Shown piece by piece: positions 8,401 through 61,124 of a stretch of 64,000 nucleotides of DNA. Origin of the DNA: Sporichthya polymorpha DSM 43042 (GTDB taxonomy: Bacteria > Actinomycetota > Actinomycetes > Sporichthyales > Sporichthyaceae); the NCBI RefSeq assembly GCF_000384115.1, contig NZ_KB913029.1, positions 3,199,057-3,263,056 on the forward strand, in the 5' to 3' direction. Every line of letters begins with the position of its first letter. Position 1 is the stretch's first letter. The notes beneath the pieces were generated by a model. The model saw nothing but the letters and a program-made list of their open reading frames with translations. It ran no database searches and was not told the origin of the DNA. The position numbers and the translations under genes were made by a program.

Positions 8401-8473
8401 GTTGATGAGGGGTGACACCCTCTATCGACGGGCCCGCGCCCGCCGTCGACAAGGGGTGACACCCTTTATCGAC
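8401..8473. repeat. Two TGNCA-centred palindromes (GGGGTGACACCC type)
   Basis: Two 29-base units, 8401-8429 and 8445-8473, share the pattern GTYGAYRAGGGGTGACACCC followed by TYTATCGAC. Each can fold into a hairpin around GTGAC. A GC spacer (GGGCCCGCGCCCGCC) lies between. Related units occur at 19395-19471 and 45872-45933. The cluster contains the stop codon of the converging minus-strand gene, so it supplies that protein's last residues. Confidence 0.9.
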
Positions 8474-9726
8474 GGGGCACCTATCCGTCGACGGGCCACG
8501 ACTGCCGTTGCGTCCGACGATGTGGTTGCCATAGCAGCCACATCGTCGGACGTCCGGGGGATTCGGCCGAGCTGAGCGCGGATCCAGCGCTGGGTGAAGG
8601 CGAAGAACTCGCGGGCGCGCGGCGCCTGGTTCAGGTCGTGCCCGGCGCCGGGGAGGACGTAGGCGTCGAGGACCGGCATGTTCGACCCGAGGTGCGCGCG
8701 CTCGTCGGCGATCAGCTCCTCCGGGGTGTCGCACCGCGTGGCGCCGAAACGGAGGCCGGTGAGGTCGCCGGTCTCGGGGAGCGTGCGGTCCTCGTGGGGC
8801 CGGGTCGCGGCGTCGAGCTGCGCGCCCGCGGGGAAGGGGTGGAAGTTCTCGCGGCAGAACAGGCTGTCCTGCGCGCCGGCGACGAGCAGCACGGGCACGC
8901 GGATGTCGTGCTTCGTCGTGAGGATGTCGCGGAACTTCGCGAGCTCGGAGAACGTGACGGTCGACTTGGTCGCCTCGTCGTGCGCGATCACCCCGGGGTC
9001 GGCCTCGGCGGGGGCGTAGAACGACTGGTAGCGGGTGTTCGGAAGGGTCGTCAGGTACCCGGGGTCCAGGCCGGCGTCGCGGAACTTCTCGTCGAACATC
9101 GCCGGGTACAGGTTGCCGAGCGCGTTCGCGAGCGCCGTGGGCGCGCCCTTGCTGGAAGCGGCGGTGAACACCGCGGCGTCGACGTCGGAGTAACGGCCGA
9201 CCTCGAACCAACCCGTCCACGTCCCGTAGGAGTGGCCGACGTAGACGACCTTGGTGAAGCGGCGGCCGTCGGAGCGGCGGATCTCGCCGGTGCGGATCGC
9301 CTGCACGACCTCATGGACCGAGTGCGCGTTGCTCTCGATCGTGAGGTCGGTGGACAGCGGCTTGGACGACCGCGTCGACCCGACCCGGTCGATCGCGAGC
9401 GTCGCGAAGCCGGCCCGGTTCGCGTGGGCGACGTAGTTGTAACGATCGGTCCCGCCGGTGCGGTCGGGGAAGGACCAGTAGCCGGCGTCGTAGGTGATGC
9501 CGTGGACCAGCAACTGGATCGCGGTCGCCCGCACGCCCTTCGGTTCGCAGAGGTCACCGACGATGCGCTGGTCCTTCGGTCCGCCCTCGGTCAGCGCGAC
9601 CGCGACCTGGACCTCGCGGCACCGCGGACCGTTCTCGGTGGCGACCGCCGCGGTCGGGGCGAGCAGCGTCAGCGCCGCCGCGCCCGCGACCGCGTGCCGC
9701 ATCCGCCGGGCCCGACCGCCAATCAT
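8422..9726 (-). CDS. Exported alpha/beta hydrolase with a repeat-encoded C-terminal tail
   Basis: 434 aa from the ATG at 9726; a second ATG at 9702 fits the signal peptide (MRHAVAGAAALTLLAPTAAVA) better and is not interrupted by the AATCATTTCC element overlapping the first. The core has LLVHG oxyanion strand, GHSYG with Ser166, and a C-terminal GAGHDLN with the catalytic His. It resembles secreted lipase-like hydrolases. From residue 392 the frame runs through a hairpin repeat (TSDDVAAMATTSSD) and a TGNCA palindrome unit (SIKGVTPC) before stopping. These 43 residues are unlikely to be part of the ancestral fold. Confidence 0.82.
   Translation of the reverse strand: MIGGRARRMRHAVAGAAALTLLAPTAAVATENGPRCREVQVAVALTEGGPKDQRIVGDLCEPKGVRATAIQLLVHGITYDAGYWSFPDRTGGTDRYNYVAHANRAGFATLAIDRVGSTRSSKPLSTDLTIESNAHSVHEVVQAIRTGEIRRSDGRRFTKVVYVGHSYGTWTGWFEVGRYSDVDAAVFTAASSKGAPTALANALGNLYPAMFDEKFRDAGLDPGYLTTLPNTRYQSFYAPAEADPGVIAHDEATKSTVTFSELAKFRDILTTKHDIRVPVLLVAGAQDSLFCRENFHPFPAGAQLDAATRPHEDRTLPETGDLTGLRFGATRCDTPEELIADERAHLGSNMPVLDAYVLPGAGHDLNQAPRAREFFAFTQRWIRAQLGRIPRTSDDVAAMATTSSDATAVVARRRIGAPSIKGVTPCRRRARARR
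8511..8552. repeat. Convergent-junction hairpin repeat, copy 1
   Basis: A 42-base inverted repeat with arms CGTCCGACGATGTGG / CCACATCGTCGGACG and a loop containing CCATAG. One arm position differs from other copies (CGACGATG instead of CGAAGATG) and the other arm carries the matching change, so pairing is kept. It lies in the 3' end of the minus-strand hydrolase gene at its junction with the plus-strand hydrolase. The same element sits at 23101, 37892 and, more diverged, 48283. A bidirectional terminator role is inferred. Confidence 0.88.
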
Positions 9727-19394: not shown

Positions 19395-19471
19395 AGGGGT
19401 GTCACCCCTTTGTCCTCCGTCACCGAGGGGTGTCACCCCTTTGGTCGCGGCGACAAGGGGGTGTCACCCCC
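19395..19471. repeat. Three GGGGTGTCACCCC palindromes at 31-base spacing
   Basis: Identical 13-base cores start at 19396, 19427 and 19458. The spacing of 31 bases is close to three turns of B-DNA. The spacers differ (TTTGTCCTCCGTCACCGA and TTTGGTCGCGGCGACAAG). The array is between two co-directional minus-strand genes. It resembles a multi-site operator as much as a repetitive extragenic element. Confidence 0.85.
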
Positions 19472-23090: not shown

Positions 23091-23100
23091 TCCCGGCACA

Positions 23101-23144
23101 ACGTCCGAAGATGTGGTCGCAATAGCAGCCACATCTTCGGACGT
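23101..23144. repeat. Convergent-junction hairpin repeat, copy 2
   Basis: 44 bases with perfect 16-base arms ACGTCCGAAGATGTGG / CCACATCTTCGGACGT and a 12-base loop TCGCAATAGCAG. It fills most of the 59-base gap between the converging family-1 gene and GntR gene. The same unit occurs at 37892. Probably a bidirectional, T-tract-free terminator. Confidence 0.9.
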
Positions 23145-23149
23145 TGCGG

Positions 23150-36744: not shown

Positions 36745-37892
36745 CTGAAACGTTGGACGCCTTCCGCGCCCGGGCCCGGGCGTTCCTCGACAGTCGGGCC
36801 GAGCGCGACCCGGCGCGGGCGCGGTCGGTGCTCGCGATCTTCGCCGAGCGCTCGGCCGCGGAGGACGCGGAGTGGGCGGCAGCCTGCCGCGCGTGGCAGC
36901 GCGAACTCTTCGACGCCGGGTTCGCGGGCGTCGCGTGGCCGACCGAGGTCGGTGGTCAGGGGCTCTCGCCGGCGCACGCGCACGTGTGGGCCGAGGAGCA
37001 GGCGCCGTACGTCGTCGCGCGCGGGCTCTTCGACGTCACGCTGGAGATCATCGGCCCGACGTTGTTCACCCTCGGAACCCCCGAGCAGCGCGAGCACTGC
37101 CGCGCGATGCTCCGCGGCGACGAGGTGTGGTGCCAGTTGTTCAGTGAGCCGGGCAGCGGAAGTGACCTGGCGTCACTGCGGACGCGTGCGGAGCCCGACG
37201 GCGTCGGCTGGCGCGTCACCGGCCAGAAGGTCTGGACCAGCGAGGCCAAGCACGCCCGGTACGGCTACCTGCTGGCGCGGACCTCCGTCGAGGGGCGCAA
37301 GCACGATGGGCTGACGGCGTTCCGGCTCGACCTGGACCAGCCCGGGGTGGAGGTCCGCGAGCTGCGGCAGATGACCGGCGGGTCCTCGTTCTCCGAGGTG
37401 TTCCTCGACGGTGCCCGCATCGGCCCCGCCGACGTCCTCGGCGAGGTGGGCAAGGGCTGGCGCGTGGCGATGACGACGCTCGGCTTCGAGCGGTTCTCCA
37501 GCCACGGCAAGTCGTTCCGGGCCCTCGTCGACCGCGCCCGCGACCTCGACTGGTCCGACCCGATCGCCCGCGACACCTACGTCCGCGCCGTCGTGGAGCA
37601 CCGCGTGCTCGCCGCGATGGAGGAGCAGGTGAATTCCGCGCTGCTGGCCGGGAAGTCCCCGGGGCCGGAGGCGACCCTCGCCAAGCTCGCCGTCGCCCAG
37701 CTGCTGGAGACCCTCTCCGACGCCGTCGCCGCCTCCCTCGGCCCGGTGCTCACCGCCGGCGCCGTCGACCTCGACGACGAGTGGCGCCGCCTCCTCCTCG
37801 CGAAGCCGGCCTTCCACATCGCCGGCGGGACCGACGAGATCCTCCGCACCCTCGTCGCCGAGCGCGTCCTCGGCCTCCCGCGCGGCTCCTGA
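36741..37892 (+). CDS. Acyl-CoA dehydrogenase
   Basis: 383 aa from GTG overlapping the aldolase stop. Landmarks: VAWPTEVGGQGLSPAHAHVWAEEQ, LFSEPGSGSDLASLRTRAEPDG, TGQKVWTSEAKHARYGYLLARTS, QMTGGSSFSEVFLDGARIGPADVLGEVG, FERFSSHG and the terminal HIAGGTDEILRTLVAERVLGLPRGS. It is the type that often needs a small partner; the nearest candidate is the convergent 38973 gene. The stop codon's last base is the first base of a hairpin repeat. Confidence 0.9.
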   Translation: MTETLDAFRARARAFLDSRAERDPARARSVLAIFAERSAAEDAEWAAACRAWQRELFDAGFAGVAWPTEVGGQGLSPAHAHVWAEEQAPYVVARGLFDVTLEIIGPTLFTLGTPEQREHCRAMLRGDEVWCQLFSEPGSGSDLASLRTRAEPDGVGWRVTGQKVWTSEAKHARYGYLLARTSVEGRKHDGLTAFRLDLDQPGVEVRELRQMTGGSSFSEVFLDGARIGPADVLGEVGKGWRVAMTTLGFERFSSHGKSFRALVDRARDLDWSDPIARDTYVRAVVEHRVLAAMEEQVNSALLAGKSPGPEATLAKLAVAQLLETLSDAVAASLGPVLTAGAVDLDDEWRRLLLAKPAFHIAGGTDEILRTLVAERVLGLPRGS

Positions 37893-37935
37893 CGTCCGAA
37901 GATGTGGCCGCTATAGCAGCCACATCTTCGGACGT
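37892..37935. repeat. Convergent-junction hairpin repeat, copy 3
   Basis: 44 bases with perfect 16-base arms ACGTCCGAAGATGTGG / CCACATCTTCGGACGT, identical in the arms to the copy at 23101, and loop CCGCTATAGCAG. It exactly spans the gap between two converging stops (37892 and 37939). Bidirectional terminator is the favoured reading. Confidence 0.9.
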
Positions 37936-37938
37936 CCG

Positions 37939-44034: not shown

Positions 44035-44870
44035 CGAGCCGGCCCGTGATCGACGCCTGGGTCCAGCCCTGGACACCCGCGGTCGCGCAGGCGCAGCCCG
44101 CGCGCAACCGCAGCCTCGCCGAGCGGTTGGGCGCGACCCGGCTGCTGGAGGGGATGCCCGCCGAGGCGCTGCTGGAGGAGATGGACGCGGCCGGGGTCGA
44201 CCGCGCGCTGGTCTCGGCCGGGCCGACGATCGCGTGGGAGGAGGTCCTCAAGGCCGTTGCCCTCGCGCCGGAGCGGCTGCTCCCGGTCGCGAGCGTCGAC
44301 CCCTGGACGCTCGACGGCGTGATGCCGGCGGTGCACGAACTGCGCCGCGCGGTTTCCGAGCACGGCGCGGTCGCGCTCAAGCTCGAACCGTTCCACCAGG
44401 ACAAGGCGCTCACCGAGGCGCGCTGGTACCCGCTGTACGCGGCGTGCGTGGACCTCGACATCACCTTGCAGGTGCAGGTCGGGAACACCGGGCCCGCGAC
44501 GTACCCGTCGTACACCGGGCAGCCGCTGTACATCGACCGTCTCGCGATCGACTTCCCCGAGCTGCGCATCGTCGCGGGACACATCGGCTGGCCCTGGACG
44601 ACCGAGATGATGGCGATCGCCCAGAAGCACGACAACGTCTGGATCGACACCAGCGCCCACCAGCCGAAGTACTACCCGCCGGAGTTCGTGCACTTCCTGC
44701 GCACGTTCGGCCGTACCAAGTGCATCTGGGCCAGCGACTGGCCGATCCTCGACTTCCCGACGGCGCTGGCGGGCCTCGATGACTTCGACCTCAAGCCCGA
44801 GGTCGAGCGGCGCTTCCTGCACGACAACGCCGTCGCGGCGTTCCGGCTCGACCGCCGGGGCTGGGCATGA
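44031..44870 (+). CDS. Amidohydrolase (amidohydrolase-2 family)
   Basis: 279 aa, ATGA overlap with the ligase. The barrel strands and likely active-site residues are VIDAWVQPW at the N-terminus (HxH replaced by WVQPW), LKLEPF, LQVQVGNTGP, IVAGHIGWPWTTEMMAIA and IWASDWPILDFP with the conserved Asp. It is shorter than the one at 20713 and has lost the N-terminal HxH, like metal-independent members. Possibly a decarboxylase or C-C hydrolase. Confidence 0.86.
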   Translation: MTSRPVIDAWVQPWTPAVAQAQPARNRSLAERLGATRLLEGMPAEALLEEMDAAGVDRALVSAGPTIAWEEVLKAVALAPERLLPVASVDPWTLDGVMPAVHELRRAVSEHGAVALKLEPFHQDKALTEARWYPLYAACVDLDITLQVQVGNTGPATYPSYTGQPLYIDRLAIDFPELRIVAGHIGWPWTTEMMAIAQKHDNVWIDTSAHQPKYYPPEFVHFLRTFGRTKCIWASDWPILDFPTALAGLDDFDLKPEVERRFLHDNAVAAFRLDRRGWA

Positions 44871-46081
44871 CGTTCGCCCTGGAGCCCGAAGGAGCCGCAG
44901 TCCTCGCCGAGGTCGCGGAGCTGGTCGGAAGCTACGGCCGGGAGGAGATCCTCGCGCTGCGCGCGGAGGTCGAGACTCTCGGTGCGGAGCGGCACGCGGA
45001 GTCCTTCCACCGTGAGCTCGCGAAGCGGAACCTGCTGGCGATCGGACTGCCGGAGCCCTGGGGCCGCAGCGCGGGGCCGACCGAGCGCTACGCCCTGCAC
45101 GAGGCCCTCGACGCCGCCGGCCTGCCGACGTACAGCCTCGAGCTGAACGAGACGATGGCGGGGATGATCGCCCGTCGGGGCCGCCCCGAGCTCGTCGCCG
45201 AACACCTGCCGAAGCTGCTCGCAGGGGAGTGGACCTACGCCGGGGGGTACAGCGAGCCCGAGGCCGGCAGCGACCTGCTGGCGCTCCGGACACGTGCGGT
45301 CCGCGAGGGCGAGGAGTACGTCGTCACCGGCACCAAGCTCTGGACGTCGTCGGCGCACCTGGCCGACTGGATCGTCACGATCGTCCGCACCGACCCGGAG
45401 TCGCAGCGGCACCGGGGCCTGTCGATCCTCGTCATCGACGCGAAGGCGCCGGGCGTGACGATCGACGCCGTTCCGGTCGTCGGTGGGTGGCGCGTCAACG
45501 CCGTCAGCTTCGACCAGGTGCGGGTCCCGGCGTCGCACCTCCTCGGTGAGGAGAACCGCGGTTGGGCCGTTCTCTCCCAGGCCCTCACCGACGAGCGAAC
45601 GATGAGCTTCGGCGGCCGCGAATCCCGGCTGCTGCTCGCGCGGCTGATCCATCGGTGGGCCGCGACCCAGGAGGACGTCGACGACGTCCGTGCCGAGGCG
45701 CTCGGTGACCTCGTTGTCGAGCTCGAGATCGAGCGGCTGCTGAACCTCCGCGCCGCCGCCCTGGGTGAACGCGGCGAGGACGCCGCCGCCGAGGCGAGCA
45801 TCAGCAAGGTCTTCGGCTCCGAGCTCGCCCAGCGCACCGCCGAGTGGGTCGACGCCGTCCTGTCCACCGACGTTGATAAGGGGTGTCACCCTTTGTCGAC
45901 CGATGTTGATAAGGGGTGTCACCCCTTGTCGACGTCGACGGGCGCGGGGCCGGCCGCGGATCCGCTGATCGCCGACGCGGGGCAGGCCCTGCGAACCTCG
46001 ACCGCGTTCACGATCATCGGTGGGACCTCGGAGGTCCAGCGCAACGTCGTCGCCGACCGGGGCCTGGGGCTGCCGCGATGA
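44867..46081 (+). CDS. Acyl-CoA dehydrogenase with an in-frame palindromic-repeat insertion
   Basis: 404 aa, ATGA overlap with the amidohydrolase. Landmarks: YSEPEAGSDLLALRTRAV, GTKLWTSSAHLADWIV, VNAVSFDQVRVPASHLLGEENRGW, MSFGGRE, SKVFGSELAQRTAEWVDAVL and the terminal AFTIIGGTSEVQRNVVADRGLGLPR. At residues 335-363 two copies of the 11-residue unit STDVDKGCHPL plus a Gly/Ala stretch interrupt the C-terminal domain; these come from two DNA palindromes. The frame is intact. The insertion is in a loop before the last helix, so activity may survive. Large-subunit type; partner is the next gene. Confidence 0.88.
   Translation: MTFALEPEGAAVLAEVAELVGSYGREEILALRAEVETLGAERHAESFHRELAKRNLLAIGLPEPWGRSAGPTERYALHEALDAAGLPTYSLELNETMAGMIARRGRPELVAEHLPKLLAGEWTYAGGYSEPEAGSDLLALRTRAVREGEEYVVTGTKLWTSSAHLADWIVTIVRTDPESQRHRGLSILVIDAKAPGVTIDAVPVVGGWRVNAVSFDQVRVPASHLLGEENRGWAVLSQALTDERTMSFGGRESRLLLARLIHRWAATQEDVDDVRAEALGDLVVELEIERLLNLRAAALGERGEDAAAEASISKVFGSELAQRTAEWVDAVLSTDVDKGCHPLSTDVDKGCHPLSTSTGAGPAADPLIADAGQALRTSTAFTIIGGTSEVQRNVVADRGLGLPR
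45872..45933. repeat. Two TGTCA-centred palindromes inside a coding sequence
   Basis: Units 45872-45900 and 45905-45933 read GTTGATAAGGGGTGTCACCC followed by YTTGTCGAC, a 29-base inverted repeat each, at 33-base spacing. They match those at 8401-8473 on the opposite strand and share the following GC spacer (GGGCGCGGG). 33 bases equals 11 codons, so the reading frame of the dehydrogenase is kept. Confidence 0.92.
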
Positions 46082-46091
46082 GGGGGTCGCG

Positions 46092-46871
46092 ATGATCGAC
46101 GAACGCTGGGGCCCGGACGCCCGCGAGTTCGCCGCCGCACTGCGGGACACCTTGCGGCGCGCGTGCCCCCCGGAGACGGTGCGGGCGATCGAGGCGGACC
46201 CGCAGGGCGCGGAGGCGACGCGGCTGGCGCAGGCGCTGGCGCAGGTGGGGTTGGAGGAGCTTCCGCTGGAGCCGGAGCTCCTGGCCGCGGCGGCGTTCGA
46301 GCTCGGTCGCGCGGCCGCACCGGCGCCCTTCGCGGTCGACGACGAGCACCTCGCCGTGCTCGTCGACGTCGCCCGGATCGCCGGGGCGGCGGAGCGGGCG
46401 TTGGAGCTCGCGGTCGCGTACGCGCAGGAGCGCCGCCAGTTCGGGGTCCCCATCGGCTCGTTCCAAGCGATCGCGCACAAGCTCGTCGACACACGCATCG
46501 CGGTGGACGGGCTCGTCCTGCTCGTCCGGAAGGTCGCGTGGGCCAGTGCGGATTCAGGTGCGCCCGACGACTTCTGGACCGCCGCCCTGATCAGTGCCGC
46601 CGTGCCGCGCGCGTTCACCGTCGCCCGCAACACGCACCAGGTGTTCGGCGGGCACGGATTCACCGTCGAGGCCGACCTGCAGTTGTGGACGCGGCGGCTG
46701 AAGGACTGGGCCCGAGCGCTCCCGCAGGACCCGACGGCGGCGCGGCTGCGCATCGCGCGGACGCTGCTCGCCGACCCAAACTCCGAGCAGATCCGCGACC
46801 TCTGGCAGCACCGGCACGGCCTCCGCCTGCCCCGGTGGGCCCGCGAACTCGACGCCGTTCCGGCCCACTGA
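46092..46871 (+). CDS. Short acyl-CoA dehydrogenase family protein (small subunit)
   Basis: 259 aa; ATG at 46092 after AGGGGGTCGCG. Far shorter than the usual 340-380 because most of the N-terminal and middle domains are absent. The C-terminal helices remain: LAVAYAQERRQFGVPIGSFQAIAHKLVDTRIA and VFGGHGFTVEADLQLWTRRLKDWARAL. It probably pairs with the preceding large subunit. Gly/Ala-rich linker AAAAFELGRAAAPAPFAVDDEHLAV replaces the beta domain. Confidence 0.83.
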   Translation: MIDERWGPDAREFAAALRDTLRRACPPETVRAIEADPQGAEATRLAQALAQVGLEELPLEPELLAAAAFELGRAAAPAPFAVDDEHLAVLVDVARIAGAAERALELAVAYAQERRQFGVPIGSFQAIAHKLVDTRIAVDGLVLLVRKVAWASADSGAPDDFWTAALISAAVPRAFTVARNTHQVFGGHGFTVEADLQLWTRRLKDWARALPQDPTAARLRIARTLLADPNSEQIRDLWQHRHGLRLPRWARELDAVPAH

Positions 46872-48282: not shown

Positions 48283-48324
48283 CGTCCGGCGAAGTGTGGC
48301 CCATAGGCCACAGTTGGCCGGACG
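48283..48324. repeat. Convergent-junction hairpin repeat, diverged copy 4
   Basis: 42 bases: outer arms CGTCCGGC / GCCGGACG, inner arms TGTGGCC / GGCCACA, loop CATA. It keeps the CGTCCG...GTGG...CATAG...CCAC...CGGACG skeleton of the copies at 8511, 23101 and 37892 but the stem bases between differ and still pair. It lies between the small plus-strand gene and the converging SDR/PEP fusion gene. Confidence 0.75.
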
Positions 48325-52039: not shown

Positions 52040-52434
52040 AGCCCGGCGACACCCTGCCCGAGCGCACATTCGGCCCGCAGACCCGAACCGACATCGTCCG
52101 CTACCAGGGGGCGAGCGGGGACTTCAACCCCGTCCACCACGACGACGAGTTCGCCCGCGCGGGCGGGCTGCCCGACGCGATCAGCGTCGGCATGCTGCAG
52201 GCGGGTTACCTCGGGACGTACTGCGTCGACCTGTTCGGGCCGACCGCGGTGCGCTCGATTGCCGTCCGTTTCGCCGAGCCGGTCCGGCCCGGCGACGTCC
52301 TCACCTGCGCCGGCACCGTCGCCGACGTCCGGCCCGAGGGCGACGGCCGCGTCGCCGACCTCGACCTGCGAATCACACGCTCCGGCGGCGGGGTCGCCGT
52401 CACCGGTGCCGTGACCGTCCGACTGGAGAACTGA
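52036..52434 (+). CDS. MaoC-type hydratase, catalytic subunit B
   Basis: 132 aa, GTGA overlap with subunit A. The R-hydratase motif is YQGASGDFNPVHHDDEFARAGGLPDAISVGMLQAGYLG, carrying the Asp/His dyad (Asp in GDFNPVHHD and the following His). It is the ChsH1-type catalytic hydratase subunit. With subunit A it hydrates an enoyl-CoA, most likely one with a bulky or alpha-branched group. The stop shares one base with the DUF35 start. Confidence 0.9.
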   Translation: MKPGDTLPERTFGPQTRTDIVRYQGASGDFNPVHHDDEFARAGGLPDAISVGMLQAGYLGTYCVDLFGPTAVRSIAVRFAEPVRPGDVLTCAGTVADVRPEGDGRVADLDLRITRSGGGVAVTGAVTVRLEN

Positions 52435-52829
52435 TGCCCCCACAGATCCCGGCCGTCGCCTACCTGCGAATCGACCCACCCGGCCTCGTCGGCTCGCGCT
52501 GCGCGGACTGCGGCGCGGTGTACCTGCTGGCGCGGATCGCGTGTGCGTCCTGCGGGGGCGCGAACCTGACCGCTGACGTCGAGCTGGCGACCACCGGCAC
52601 CGTCACGACCGCCACCGTCGTGCGCCGCGGGATGCCGGGAGTGCCGACCCCGTTCACCAGCGGCGTCGTCGCGCTCGACGGCGGTGGCTTCGTCCGCTGC
52701 ACGTTGACCGGGGCCGAGGACCCGGTCGCGGTCGTCGGGCGGCGGGCCGCGCTGGAGACCGGTGTGGTCGGGACCGACGTCGCCGGCACGGCGGCCGTCG
52801 GGTTCACGTTCCGGGTGGAGGCGGCATGA
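52434..52829 (+). CDS. DUF35 zinc-ribbon/OB-fold protein
   Basis: 131 aa, TGATG junction with the hydratase. Zinc ribbon CADCGAVYLLARIACASC (about 23-40), then an OB fold (TTGTVTTATVVRRGMP...FVRCTLTGAEDPVAVVGRRAALETGV). In ChsH2 the same domain is the C-terminus of a MaoC protein; here it is a separate gene placed after both MaoC genes and just before the thiolase that it should bind. Confidence 0.88.
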   Translation: MPPQIPAVAYLRIDPPGLVGSRCADCGAVYLLARIACASCGGANLTADVELATTGTVTTATVVRRGMPGVPTPFTSGVVALDGGGFVRCTLTGAEDPVAVVGRRAALETGVVGTDVAGTAAVGFTFRVEAA

Positions 52830-54016
52830 GCGCGCCGATCTGGGTCGTGGGCGCGGACATGACGCGCTTCACCCGGTACGACGATGCGGACGTCGCCACC
52901 CTGGGCGGCACCGCCGCGCGGGGTGCCCTGAGCGACGCCGGGGTGACGATTCACGAGATGCAGTTCGTCGCCGTTGGCAACGTCTTCGAGGCGCTGACGG
53001 GCGTCGGGCAGCGGGTGCTGCACGAGATCGGGATGACGGGCGTGCCGGTCGTCAACGTCGTCAACGCGTGCGCGACGGGGGCGACGGCGGTCCGCGCCGC
53101 GATCGCCGCGATCCGCGCGGGGGAGGCCGACACCGCGCTCGCGGTCGGCGTCGAGCAGCTCGGCAAGCGCGGGCTGCTCGCGGCGCCGGAGGAGCCGCGG
53201 CCGGCCGAGTACACGCCGCGCGGTCGGGACGGTTCGGTGCTCGACACCGAGGGGCTGATCGGCAGTTCGACGATGCCGGCGGTGTTCGCCGAGGCCGGGG
53301 TCGAGTACCTGGCCGCGAACCCGGAGGCGTCGGCCGACCACTTCTTCCGCATCGCGGAGAAGAACCACGCGCACTCGACGCTCAACCCGCTGGCGCAGTA
53401 CCGGAAGCGGTTCAGCTTCGATCAGATCCGTGACGGCGACATGATCGCGTGGCCGAACACCGCGTTGATGTGCTCGCCGACCAGTGACGGCGCGGCCGCG
53501 GTCGTCGTCGTCAACGAGGCCGGGCTCGCGACGCTCGACCCGGGCGTGCGGGCGCGCGCGGTGCGGGTGGCGGCGTCGGTGCTCGTCTCGGACCCGTGGG
53601 TCCCGGACGCCGAGGCGCGGTGGGACGTCAGCACCGTGACGCGGAACGCCGCGGCCGCCGCCTACGAGCAGGCCGGCCTCGGGCCCGAGGACCTCGATCT
53701 CGTCGAGCTCCACGACTGCTTCGCCACCGCGGAGCTGCTGCACTACGAGAACCTGCAGCTCTGCAAACCCGGTGACGCGGTGCGGTTCCTGGAGTCCGGC
53801 GCGCCCTGGCGCGACGGGTCGTTGCCCGTGAACGTCTCCGGGGGCCTGCTGTCCAAGGGTCACCCCCTCGGCGCGACCGGCGTCGCTGGTGTCTACGAGA
53901 TCGTCACCCACCTTCGCGGCGAGGCCGGCGACCGCCAGATCCCCGGCGCTCGCGTCGGCCTCGCCCACGTCCTCGGCCTCGGCAGCGCCTGCGCCGTCCA
54001 CATCCTGCAGAAGTAG
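52826..54016 (+). CDS. SCP-x-type thiolase (acetyl-CoA acyltransferase) with intact Cys
   Basis: 396 aa, ATGA overlap with DUF35. Unlike the protein at 35545 it keeps the thiolase residues: nucleophilic Cys in NVVNACATGATAVRAA (near 76), HDCF in LVELHDCFATAELLHYENLQLC, and GHPLGATGVAG. The terminal GLGSACAVHILQK holds a Cys at the usual second position. It should cleave a 3-ketoacyl-CoA. Together with the two MaoC subunits and the DUF35 it forms a compact hydratase/thiolase cassette. Confidence 0.9.
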   Translation: MSAPIWVVGADMTRFTRYDDADVATLGGTAARGALSDAGVTIHEMQFVAVGNVFEALTGVGQRVLHEIGMTGVPVVNVVNACATGATAVRAAIAAIRAGEADTALAVGVEQLGKRGLLAAPEEPRPAEYTPRGRDGSVLDTEGLIGSSTMPAVFAEAGVEYLAANPEASADHFFRIAEKNHAHSTLNPLAQYRKRFSFDQIRDGDMIAWPNTALMCSPTSDGAAAVVVVNEAGLATLDPGVRARAVRVAASVLVSDPWVPDAEARWDVSTVTRNAAAAAYEQAGLGPEDLDLVELHDCFATAELLHYENLQLCKPGDAVRFLESGAPWRDGSLPVNVSGGLLSKGHPLGATGVAGVYEIVTHLRGEAGDRQIPGARVGLAHVLGLGSACAVHILQK

Positions 54017-54033
54017 GCAGGAGCGGGCATTGG

Positions 54034-54062
54034 TTGCGTGTGTGACGCGGGGCACGTATCGT
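54034..54062 (+). promoter_or_regulatory. Promoter candidate for the ABC importer operon
   Basis: TTGCGT at 54034-54039 and TATCGT at 54057-54062 with a 17-base spacer fit a sigma-A promoter. Transcription would start near 54069 and give a leader of about 64 bases. The ribosome site GGGAGG lies at 54116-54121. Confidence 0.5.
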
Positions 54063-54072
54063 CGACAACGGA

Positions 54073-54089
54073 GAAATCATATTCACTTG
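54073..54089. promoter_or_regulatory. AATCAT-type element at +5 of the importer promoter
   Basis: GAAATCATATTCACTTG. Its reverse strand contains AAGTGAATATGAT, identical over 13 bases to the divergent promoter at 51007-51019. The core AAATCATATTCACT aligns with 25641 and 40677. Its position just downstream of the -10 would suit a repressor. Confidence 0.55.
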
Positions 54090-54132
54090 GCGGGTCGACG
54101 CGGACCCGTGATTCCGGGAGGCGACACCGGCG

Positions 54133-55602
54133 GTGAAGAGGACGCGCGCGCAGGTGTGGTCGGCGACGGCCGTCGTCTGCTGCCTCGCGTTGCTGCTCGC
54201 CGGCTGCGGGACCCGGCGCACTCATGACGAGCTGAAGACCGCGCTCGTCGACCAGTTCCCGACGGCCGCCGGGAGTCAGCTCGCGCCCGGCGCCGTCACC
54301 GATCCGGGGACCACGCCGGCCCAGCCCCAGCAGCCCGCTGCCCCCGAGGCGCCGGCCCCCGGGGCGACCACCGCGCCCGGTGCCGTCGCCACCACCGCTC
54401 CGGGCACCAACCCGAACGCCGGCGGCCCGAAACCGGCCGCGACGACGAAGGCGCAGCCCGGCGCCGGGGCGACCGGCGGCGGATCGGGCCGACCGTGCAC
54501 CGGTACCGAGAAGCCGATCGTTCTCGGTTCCGTCGGCCAGCAGTCGGGCATCGCCGGCGCGGTCACGATGAACGGCCCGAAGGCCGTGTCGGCGTGGGTG
54601 GCGTCGGTCAACGCGGCCGGTGGTCTGGCGTGCCATCAGGTCCGGTACCTCATCGCGGACGACGGCGGGAGCCCGGCCAAGCACGCCGCGCAGGTTCAGC
54701 AACTCGTCGAGCGCGACGGCGTCATCGCGTTCGTGCAGATGAATCCGGCACTGTCCTGGAGCGGCAGCGAGAAGTACCTCGTGGCCAAGAAGATTCCGGT
54801 GATCGGGACCGACACGTCCTACGACATGGTCTACAACCACCCGAACTTCTTCCCGCAGGCCTCGAGTGGGAAGTACAGCGTGCAGGCCTCGATCGGGGCG
54901 GCGTCGACGAGCTTCAGCCCGGAGGCGAAGGCCAACTTCGGGGTGCTCTCCTGCCAGGAGATCGCGGCCTGCACCTACCTCGCCGACAACGCGAAGAGCC
55001 TCGCCGACTTGTTCGGCCTGACGCTGAAGTACAGCGGGCGCGTGTCGATCACGCAGCCGGACTACACGTCGGTCTGTGTCGCCGCGAAGAACGCCGGGGT
55101 CAAAGGCCTGTTCGTCATCCTCGACGCCAACAGCGTCCACCGGTTCGCCCGCTCGTGCACGTCCGTGCAGTACAAGCCGCAGATCATCACGCCGGGTACG
55201 GGCGTGACGCCGTCGATGACCGGGGACCCCAACCTCGAGGGCTTCTTCCAGTCGCTGATGGTCGCGCCGTTCACCGACCCGTCGATCCCGGGCGTGAAGG
55301 AGATGAAGTCGGTCCTGACGCGGTTCGCGCCGGGTCTCGACCACTCCGGCCAGACCGCGGTCGGCTGGGTGTCGGCCAAGCTCGTCGAGCACGCGTCGCA
55401 GTTCTTCCCGGCCAAGGATTCCTTGACGAGCGCGGACGTCCTCGCCTCCATGTACAGGGTGAAGAACTTCACCGCCGGCGGGATGACAGCGCCCCTGACC
55501 TACACGCAGGGGGAGAACGCCAAGCCGTTCGTGTGCTGGGCCAGCACCACGATCCGCAACGGCGCGTGGGCCACCGCGTCGAAGTGGACGTGCAAGAAGT
55601 GA
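54133..55602 (+). CDS. Branched-chain-type ABC transporter substrate-binding lipoprotein
   Basis: 489 aa from GTG after CGGGAGGCGACACCGGC. Lipobox LLAGC with Cys25, then a Pro/Ala/Thr-rich linker to about residue 120 and a type I periplasmic-binding fold: IVLGSVGQQSGIAGAVTMNGPKAVSAWVASVNAAGGLACHQVRYLIADDGG, AFVQMNPALSWSGSEKYLV, PVIGTDTSYDMVYNHPNFF. Additional Cys pairs (CQEIAAC, CVAAK..., CTSVQ) may form disulfides. Ligands of relatives in such loci include steroid or aromatic acids as well as amino acids. Heads an operon to 61038. Confidence 0.9.
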   Translation: MKRTRAQVWSATAVVCCLALLLAGCGTRRTHDELKTALVDQFPTAAGSQLAPGAVTDPGTTPAQPQQPAAPEAPAPGATTAPGAVATTAPGTNPNAGGPKPAATTKAQPGAGATGGGSGRPCTGTEKPIVLGSVGQQSGIAGAVTMNGPKAVSAWVASVNAAGGLACHQVRYLIADDGGSPAKHAAQVQQLVERDGVIAFVQMNPALSWSGSEKYLVAKKIPVIGTDTSYDMVYNHPNFFPQASSGKYSVQASIGAASTSFSPEAKANFGVLSCQEIAACTYLADNAKSLADLFGLTLKYSGRVSITQPDYTSVCVAAKNAGVKGLFVILDANSVHRFARSCTSVQYKPQIITPGTGVTPSMTGDPNLEGFFQSLMVAPFTDPSIPGVKEMKSVLTRFAPGLDHSGQTAVGWVSAKLVEHASQFFPAKDSLTSADVLASMYRVKNFTAGGMTAPLTYTQGENAKPFVCWASTTIRNGAWATASKWTCKK

Positions 55603-56882
55603 CGGTGCGTCGGCTGGCTGGAGCCCTGCTCGCCGGTGGCCTCCTCGTCGGCGTCGGGACGCAACTGCTGCCGACGGCGGCCGCGGCCACGGCCTCCTTC
55701 GACGGCAGTTCCTCGGCGTACGGGTTGCGGGTCAACGAGTCCATCCCCGGCGCCCCGGGCGCGGACACCGTCCTCGACGGCGGCGGCCCGACGGCGCAGG
55801 CGGCCTTCACCTCGCTGGGCGGCGGCACGGGCTACGCGGCCCTGCCGGACCCGGGCCAGTTCCTCGTCGGCGTCCCCGGCCTCGTCGCCGGACTCGGGCA
55901 GATCAACCAGGAGCTGCCCGAGTACCCGCTCGCGGTGCAGGCGAGCACCACCGACCCGGAGAAGGAGCTCTCCGCCGACGGGTACGCGATCCGTGCCCGG
56001 GTCGGCGAGAACGCCGCGACCTCCTCCGCCGCCGTCGGGGTTGGCCGTGACGCGACCGCGCTGCGCGGGGTCCTGGTGAAGTCCGACGCCTCGGTCTCCC
56101 GACGCGAGGACGGGTCGGTCGTCTCCACCGCGACCTCGATCGTCGAGGGCCTGACGCTCGGCCCCGTCACGATCGGGCGCATCACCTCGACCGCGACGCG
56201 CACCCTGACCGCGGCCGGCAAGCTCGTCTCCGACTCGGACCTGTCGGTCACCAACGTCAGCGTCGCCGGGACGGCGGTCACCTCGCCAACCGGGGCGCCG
56301 GGCGAGGGGACCTCGCCGTTCTCGCTCGGCCCGGCCGTGGACCCGGTGCTCAAGCCGCTCGGCATTTCGCTCATGACGATGGCCGCGCAGGAGGTCGGCG
56401 ACACCGTCGTCGCGCCCGCGCTGATGATCACCGGCAGCTTCCCGGTTGATCCGGCGAATCCGTCGGCGGGCAACGGCACCTACAACCTGATCCTCGGACA
56501 GTCCACCGCGCGGCTGCTCGGCGCGGCCGCGCCGGCCTACGCACCCGGCGCCGGCCAGACACCGGGCAGCGGCGTGACGCCGGGTCAGCTCCCCAGCACG
56601 GACGGTCTGACGCCCGACCTCGGCGGCGCCCCGGGTGCAGTGCCCGGAGCCGTCCCGGGTGCGGTACCTGGCGGCGGCGTCCCGACCGTCCCGCTCGTGC
56701 CCGTCGGTGCGGTGGGGATGTCCGACGCCGACGTCGCCGCCCTGCTCGCCGGGTGGGAAGGCGCGTTCGACATCGGTGGTCTCTACGTGTTCCTCGTGGT
56801 CGCGGGCCTGTCTGCGTTCGTGGTCGCCCAGGGAGTTCGGCTGAGAGGAGTGAGGGCGCCATGGACCTCGTCCGGTGGCTGA
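55599..56882 (+). CDS. Exported, C-terminally membrane-anchored protein of the importer operon, unknown family
   Basis: 427 aa, GTGA overlap with the lipoprotein gene. Signal peptide residues 1-30 (RRLAGALLAGGLLVGVGTQLLPTAAAA). The exported part has many Thr/Ser/Gly/Val strands (GLRVNESIPGAPGADTVLDGGGPTAQA, YPLAVQASTTDPEKELSADGYAIRARVGE), then a Gly/Pro linker with GAVPGAVPGAVP repeats near 345-365, one membrane helix (LYVFLVVAGLSAFVVAQGV) and a short basic tail. It is placed between binding protein and permease genes, so it is probably a cell-envelope component of this transporter. No family recognised. Confidence 0.75.
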   Translation: MTVRRLAGALLAGGLLVGVGTQLLPTAAAATASFDGSSSAYGLRVNESIPGAPGADTVLDGGGPTAQAAFTSLGGGTGYAALPDPGQFLVGVPGLVAGLGQINQELPEYPLAVQASTTDPEKELSADGYAIRARVGENAATSSAAVGVGRDATALRGVLVKSDASVSRREDGSVVSTATSIVEGLTLGPVTIGRITSTATRTLTAAGKLVSDSDLSVTNVSVAGTAVTSPTGAPGEGTSPFSLGPAVDPVLKPLGISLMTMAAQEVGDTVVAPALMITGSFPVDPANPSAGNGTYNLILGQSTARLLGAAAPAYAPGAGQTPGSGVTPGQLPSTDGLTPDLGGAPGAVPGAVPGAVPGGGVPTVPLVPVGAVGMSDADVAALLAGWEGAFDIGGLYVFLVVAGLSAFVVAQGVRLRGVRAPWTSSGG

Positions 56883-61040: not shown

Positions 61041-61124
61041 TGCACTGGAGATGACATCTCTAGTGCATCCCCCTGCACTGGAGATGACATCTCTTGTGCA
61101 CCTGCATAAGAGATGACATCTCCA
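61041..61124. repeat. Three GAGATGACATCTC palindromes after the importer operon
   Basis: Cores GAGATGACATCTC start at 61048, 61081 and 61110 (spacing 33 and 29). Copies 1 and 2 extend to 27 bases with TGCACT or TGCAC arms and matching AGTGCA or GTGCA; copy 3 (61103-61124) has only the inner arms. All have a TGACA centre, as does the related site at 19355. They stand between the importer genes and the promoter of the next operon. Confidence 0.88.

Follow-up and report, generated by a model that had tools for sequence, protein, structure and literature searches.

Palindromic repeats of two families occupy one in-frame site of an acyl-CoA dehydrogenase gene in two Sporichthya species

An acyl-CoA dehydrogenase (ACAD) gene in the 64,000-nucleotide stretch of the Sporichthya polymorpha genome analyzed here (the window) carries a tandem pair of type A palindromes in frame, and its orthologue in a sister species carries a pair of type B palindromes at exactly the same place. 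One coding site is thus occupied by type A in one species and by type B in the other. We consider it highly probable that the pair belongs to a species-group-specific, dispersed palindrome of the REP/RPE kind, from a family of 3′-end hairpins, and that it was inserted in frame into a loop of the enzyme and tolerated there. Both the neutrality of the insert and its arrival by insertion, as opposed to another way of copying, are what we infer.

The gene (44867–46081, forward strand) encodes a 404-residue subunit of ChsE4/FadE26 type with the Pfam ACAD N, M and C domains. The first 33-bp repeat unit (45869–45901, forward strand) contains the palindrome GTTGATAAGGGGTGTCACCCTTTGTCGAC (45872–45900) and encodes STDVDKGCHPL as residues 333–343; the second (45902–45934, forward strand) contains GTTGATAAGGGGTGTCACCCCTTGTCGAC (45905–45933) and encodes the same peptide as residues 344–354. 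The two units, which follow a period of 33 bp, differ at 3 of 33 bases, and each is a 29-bp near-palindrome around GGGGTGTCACCC; that of unit 2 is a near-perfect 29-mer with one central base, and that of unit 1 has one mismatch more. An earlier note had described two 29-base palindromes at 33-base spacing at 45872–45933, encoding STDVDKGCHPL twice in the C-terminal part of the protein, with related DNA elsewhere in the window. Apart from the few mismatches, these coordinates are confirmed, as is the double peptide, and the related DNA is real, comprising an intergenic type A palindrome pair just after a stop codon (8401–8429 and 8445–8473, forward strand) and an intergenic triplet of type A cores (19395–19471, forward strand). 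A native linker, about STSTGAGPAA, follows the repeats in the ACAD gene (45935–45964, forward strand). In RNA form, the two repeats together make a single long hairpin (−64.7 kcal/mol, z = −10.2). This mRNA hairpin would be very stable, but a search for terminator-like signals at this place gave none, so the insert need not stop transcription.

The nearest solved structures to the window ACAD, by sequence and by fold, are Tcur3483 of the Tcur3481–Tcur3483 steroid ACAD (6wy9/6wy8) and ChsE4–ChsE5 (4x28). Directly downstream, the gene model places a second ACAD subunit gene of 259 codons (46092–46871, forward strand; Pfam Acyl-CoA_dh_1). A closest match to ChsE4/Tcur3483 in both sequence and fold, together with paired adjacent subunit genes, is the pattern of heterotetrameric steroid ACADs of the ChsE4–ChsE5 type, and the product is probably a subunit of a predicted α2β2 enzyme. 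Residues E243-R244, which we take to be the catalytic Glu position of the subclass (IVD/ChsE4-type enzymes), are invariant in alignment A2.

Between two conserved anchors, the loop that holds the repeats spans 77 residues in the window genome and 71 in the sister species, versus 46–63 (median 57) in 27 homologues, which agrees with the earlier statement that usual homologues are shorter at this place. Subtracting the repeat-encoded residues (22 and 18, respectively) leaves 55 and 53. We looked for distant orthologues that carry the same 25–30 residues but no palindrome, and the outcome was negative, since these repeat-free lengths fall in the homologue range. An AlphaFold2 model computed from 12 aligned sequences (mean pLDDT 72) drops below a pLDDT of 50 only at residues 334–364 and at both termini. 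Residues 334–364 stand between helix 307–332 and helix 366–384 and comprise the repeats together with the native linker. The model thus places the insert in a flexible, low-pLDDT segment late in the C-terminal domain, as the idea of a loop insertion would have it, and predicts this loop to be disordered.

The sister species, about 92% identical to the window genome at the DNA level, has an ACAD orthologue with 90% amino acid identity. At the site of the pair, this orthologue carries TGCACAAGAGATGTCATCTCCACTGCACGCACTGGAGATGACATCTCTTGTGCA, in which two in-frame type B units form a palindrome of 54 bp. This insert encodes RPRTRCTRDVISTARTGDDISCAG, a peptide unrelated to STDVDKGCHPL, and forms an in-gene hairpin of −42.5 kcal/mol (z −8.2). 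Codon comparison of the two species finds no conservation inside the insert and dN/dS values of 0.084 upstream (332 codons) and 0.108 downstream (40 codons). With such low values, purifying selection acts on both flanks, and neither species has lost the open frame across its insert. It is accordingly very improbable that the gene is a decaying pseudogene or its frame an assembly artifact: nothing beyond the oddity of the insert suggests either, while the frame is open in both species with different inserts, the flanking dN/dS is 0.08 and 0.11, and E243-R244 is invariant.

Since the sister's peptide is unrelated, the insert shows no conservation at the peptide level. GCHPL occurs twice in the window gene, giving two Cys and two His per subunit, and on this basis the 22 residues might be read as a functional feature of the protein, such as a Cys/His metal- or partner-binding motif, with the palindrome secondary. 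Such a role is scarcely credible, because the same palindromic DNA is found between genes genome-wide, the insert of the sister lacks the motif, homologues lack the segment and the segment is predicted to be disordered. We regard the Cys and His residues, which had been put forward as a gain, as incidental; the metal-site idea was rejected because the sister does without it. The ACAD orthologue is present in the sister species only, and no outgroup orthologue lacking the insert was found; the empty site of this gene is therefore reconstructed from paralogues and distant homologues.

To follow the repeats beyond this gene, we compared the window genome (G000; 5.50 Mb, single contig) with two genomes of the same genus (G001 and the sister, G002) and two of the same family (G003 and G004). 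The type A core is GGGGTGTCACCCC and the type B core GGAGATGTCATCTCC, and little sequence is common to the two beyond a TGTCA core and the palindromic form. The window contains 16 matches to type A cores with at most two mismatches, against a shuffle mean of 4.9, and none of 100 dinucleotide shuffles reaches 16. It also contains an intergenic triplet of type B palindromes with GGAGATGACATCTC cores (61041–61122, forward strand), conserved at its site in the sister. Across G000, AAGGGGTGTCACCC gives 179 + 154 = 333 strand-wise matches with at most one mismatch, many of these palindromes being counted on both strands, and the reversed-pattern control gives 0. A strand bias of exact AAGGGGTGTCACCC, seen only among the matches listed, was rejected as symmetric double counting.

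Exact RGGGGTGTCACCCCY occurs 31 + 28 times in G000, 21 + 20 times in G002, 2 + 1 times in G001 and once each in 3 of 145 other members of the class. Among 148 class genomes, type A is present in number only in G000 and G002, with at most three matches in G001, G003 and G004; type B has 173 matches in G000, 365 in G002 and a few stray matches elsewhere. Like known intragenic palindromic repeats, these elements are palindromic and dispersed within one genome, and a search of Rfam gave no match in the window. Copies differ in their outer arms by compensated changes, at offsets 11 and 14 in type A and at offsets 9, 10 and 12 in type B, to which subfamily structure could contribute.

In most cases, a type A copy is one half of a 44-bp composite, AAAGGGTGACACCCCTTACTGCGCAGTAAGGGGTGTCACCCTTT, found at 81 places in G000 and 108 in G002 and at none in G001, G003 and G004. 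The composite is a perfect hairpin (−41.8 kcal/mol) with an A-tract and a T-tract at its two ends, and at least four T within the 7 nt after the stem follow 97 of 98 composite half-sites, 13 of 40 single type A forms and 0 of 61 type B forms. It therefore combines the GC-rich hairpin and the T-tract of an intrinsic terminator. Its position is also that of a terminator, at 3′ ends: the 86 intergenic type A arrays divide into 59 between convergent genes, 27 between tandem genes and 0 between divergent genes, where all intergenic gaps give a background of 163, 639 and 306 (p 2e-29 and 8e-13). With T-tracts on both sides, and judged by its position and structure, the composite is probably an intrinsic terminator that acts in both directions and exists in about a hundred near-identical copies. 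An A-/T-tract-flanked hairpin between convergent genes is what ordinary bidirectional intrinsic terminators also present, but here one sequence recurs in about 80–100 dispersed near-identical copies per genome.

Copies inside genes were sought with a codon-usage gene finder run on sampled stretches that total 1.8 Mb in G000 and 0.66 Mb in G002; genes were named by homology and sequence reading, and the Pfam scan covered the ACAD pair and the neighboring ligase. Genes hold about 6% of the arrays sampled in G000. A TilS gene (G000 2378230–2379261) has a repeat insert of 42 nt (14 aa) that is absent from G002, G003 and G004; the total length difference is 48 nt, two C-terminal codons included. 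With three relatives lacking the insert, the direction of change at TilS is insertion. An ACAD-beta gene (G000 3305677–3306705) carries 39 nt of repeat that is absent from G002. Repeats thus stand in frame in unrelated protein genes whose relatives are without them, and the proposal that the repeat spreads and is tolerated in coding regions is upheld by these two genes, each lacking its insert in the sister. An acyl-CoA synthetase gene and a FliO-like gene have in-frame type B units common to G000 and G002, with flanking dN/dS, where measurable, of 0.09–0.11 and zero change after the FliO insert. Further in-frame copies in G002 lie in an ANL ligase and another ACAD, and type B pairs sit at equivalent places in two different ANL ligases, namely the linker ahead of the P-loop. 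The repeat-bearing AMP-binding and ACAD2 loops of G002 are no longer than those of homologues; since several loops are of this kind, replacement of native loop sequence also occurs. Two in-ORF matches in G000 were discarded, one at 52049–55678 as a spurious antisense-like N-terminal frame and one at 281129 as a chance match with no palindrome, and two composites flagged as in-gene sit at the last codons of predicted genes.

Most array positions are common to G000 and G002 in synteny, many with the same elements and others with a different copy number or family, and a few are vacant in one species. At some, one type B unit faces three or four, or a type A array has four type B units added; a type B pair at G000 3309129 faces different palindromes in G002. 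Because shared positions can hold differing families, the ACAD site is one of several at which families have been exchanged. Within the preferred explanation of insertion into a permissive loop, the two species might have acquired their ACAD inserts independently, the loop being a hot spot, as opposed to replacement in place. Types A and B share little beyond TGTCA and the palindromic form, and the reuse of an equivalent pre-P-loop linker by type B pairs in two ANL ligases speaks for tolerant loops; the sharing of most intergenic positions, some with another family or copy number, favors instead a site that has long been occupied and has turned over in place. We think independent insertion quite possible, at somewhat less than an even chance. 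A further idea, which we consider unlikely, is that palindromes of this genus are rewritten in place, with families swapped even inside a reading frame while hairpin and frame are kept, the TGTCA center being fixed and the arms compensated, such that the hairpin and not its sequence is the unit copied or selected. Separately, one orthologous type B palindrome (G000 3393486 and G002:C14 250184) is near-identical in the two species except for its center, which reads TGTCA in one and TGACA in the other, a difference such as inversion or a point mutation of the center would leave.

The suggestion that the repeat is mobile holds in part. Inserts absent from the sister support it as a history of spread, but present-day transposition finds no transposase partner, and most intergenic positions are shared. 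A search of G000–G004 for a Y1 transposase (PF01797; RAYT) gave 0 matches, with control genomes positive. GTAG/CTAC and CGTC/GACG within 30 bp of cores are at or below expectation, and no clear target-site duplication was seen at the junctions. In the 1.8-Mb sample, four pairs of long near-identical repeats have no type A or B core at their ends. These pairs, of 1.1–1.5 kb (G000 153227/406907, 299984/363619, 333161/334787 and 961135/1086235), are probably IS elements or duplicated genes.

Considered together, these data support a model in which the repeat family would serve mainly as 3′-end hairpins, the 44-bp composite with its T-tracts ending transcription both ways between convergent genes, and the single forms, with a weak T-tract or none, lying at gene ends and, as a minority, in reading frames. 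The REP/RPE-like pair would have entered, in frame, the hypervariable surface loop that separates the final two long helices of the ACAD. Within genes, selection would retain only copies of a length and frame that do not interrupt the chain, sited in a flexible loop or linker; the ACAD insert would then amount to about 20 extra residues with no visible loss of function, in a peptide without a conserved role. The in-gene hairpin might itself be selected, adjusting how the mRNA is translated, decays or is processed between the genes of the two ACAD subunits, in which case lineages would retain a hairpin at this place whatever its sequence or peptide. Very stable hairpins at the same codon position in both species, from different families and with unrelated peptides, would suit this, as would the co-directional partner gene at 46092. 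A shared position is, however, equally expected from a permissive loop or a replaced ancestral insert, other in-gene copies lie in unrelated genes, two of them absent from the sister, and the ACAD site has no terminator-like signal; we judge selection on the hairpin distinctly improbable.

Insertion of palindromes in frame has precedents both in Rickettsia and among bacteria rich in REPs. The palindromic elements of Rickettsia (RPE, Ogata et al.), about 150 bp long, are tolerated as in-frame inserts in unrelated enzyme genes and also lie between genes (PMC10969869). They are set apart by size and host from the repeats described here, which have 29–33-bp units and 44–54-bp pairs and belong to another lineage, with a high-GC genome of 5.5 Mb. 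Intragenic REPs are known in many bacteria, more than half of the intragenic inserts being dimers or groups that code for 20–30 aa, and REPs are found chiefly between genes in convergent or tandem order (PMC3733652). Our repeats resemble GTAG- and CGTC-tagged REPs as short palindromes that are often dimers, in tandem or convergent position and sometimes in genes, but neither tag is enriched, the center is TGTCA, the symmetry is near-perfect and there is no RAYT. Two Xanthomonas species have different REPs at about the same recB site (PMC3733652), a direct precedent for the family exchange in the ACAD gene, and the TilS insert brings to mind the REP- and RPE-tagged genes for tRNA pseudouridine synthase (PMC3733652). 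REPINs, inverted pairs of short palindromes, are dispersed as units with RAYT (TnpA-REP) transposases (PMC3116915, PMC8266576); ours are likewise dispersed inverted pairs, but neither the genome nor four relatives has a Y1 transposase gene. What is new, within the literature searched, is the host lineage and its repeat families, a composite that resembles a terminator, and a well-resolved case of exchange at a site within a gene. Filled, vacant and family-switched coding sites in one species pair provide a clean natural experiment, far from Rickettsia, on the entry of short palindromes into proteins, and the repeats suggest that a high-copy terminator hairpin is a possible source of protein inserts, joining two topics usually kept apart.

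Several further palindromes and repeat ends were observed. In many type A elements (e.g., G000 3280308, 3396653 and 3305907), the composite terminus is TTTTCCACAG or TTGACAGCGG, extending the palindrome, and TTTTCCACA resembles the DnaA-box consensus, TTWTNCACA. Exact AAGGGGTGTCACCCYTT has a single match in 2.9 million viral contigs (IMGVR_UViG_3300006217_000636, locus L231, 12575–12591), probably chance or host DNA. The palindromes CTGCGGGATGACGTCCCGCAG and GGGGTGTCAGCCC...GGGCTGACACCCC, at about 94690–94790 of G002:C14 (L084) and in the G000 3356077 region (L097), are further families with a TGACG/TGTCA center, and one such array lies opposite a type B pair of the other species. Type D palindromes, at window positions 8511–8552, 23099–23146, 37889–37938 and 48283–48324, are 42–50-bp hairpins, e.g., CGTCCGAAGATGTGGCTGCTATTGCAGCCACATCTTCGGACG, of fixed length, with a conserved center and strongly co-varying arms; the sampled 2.5 Mb contains 27 copies, and 17 of 26 placed copies lie between convergent genes.
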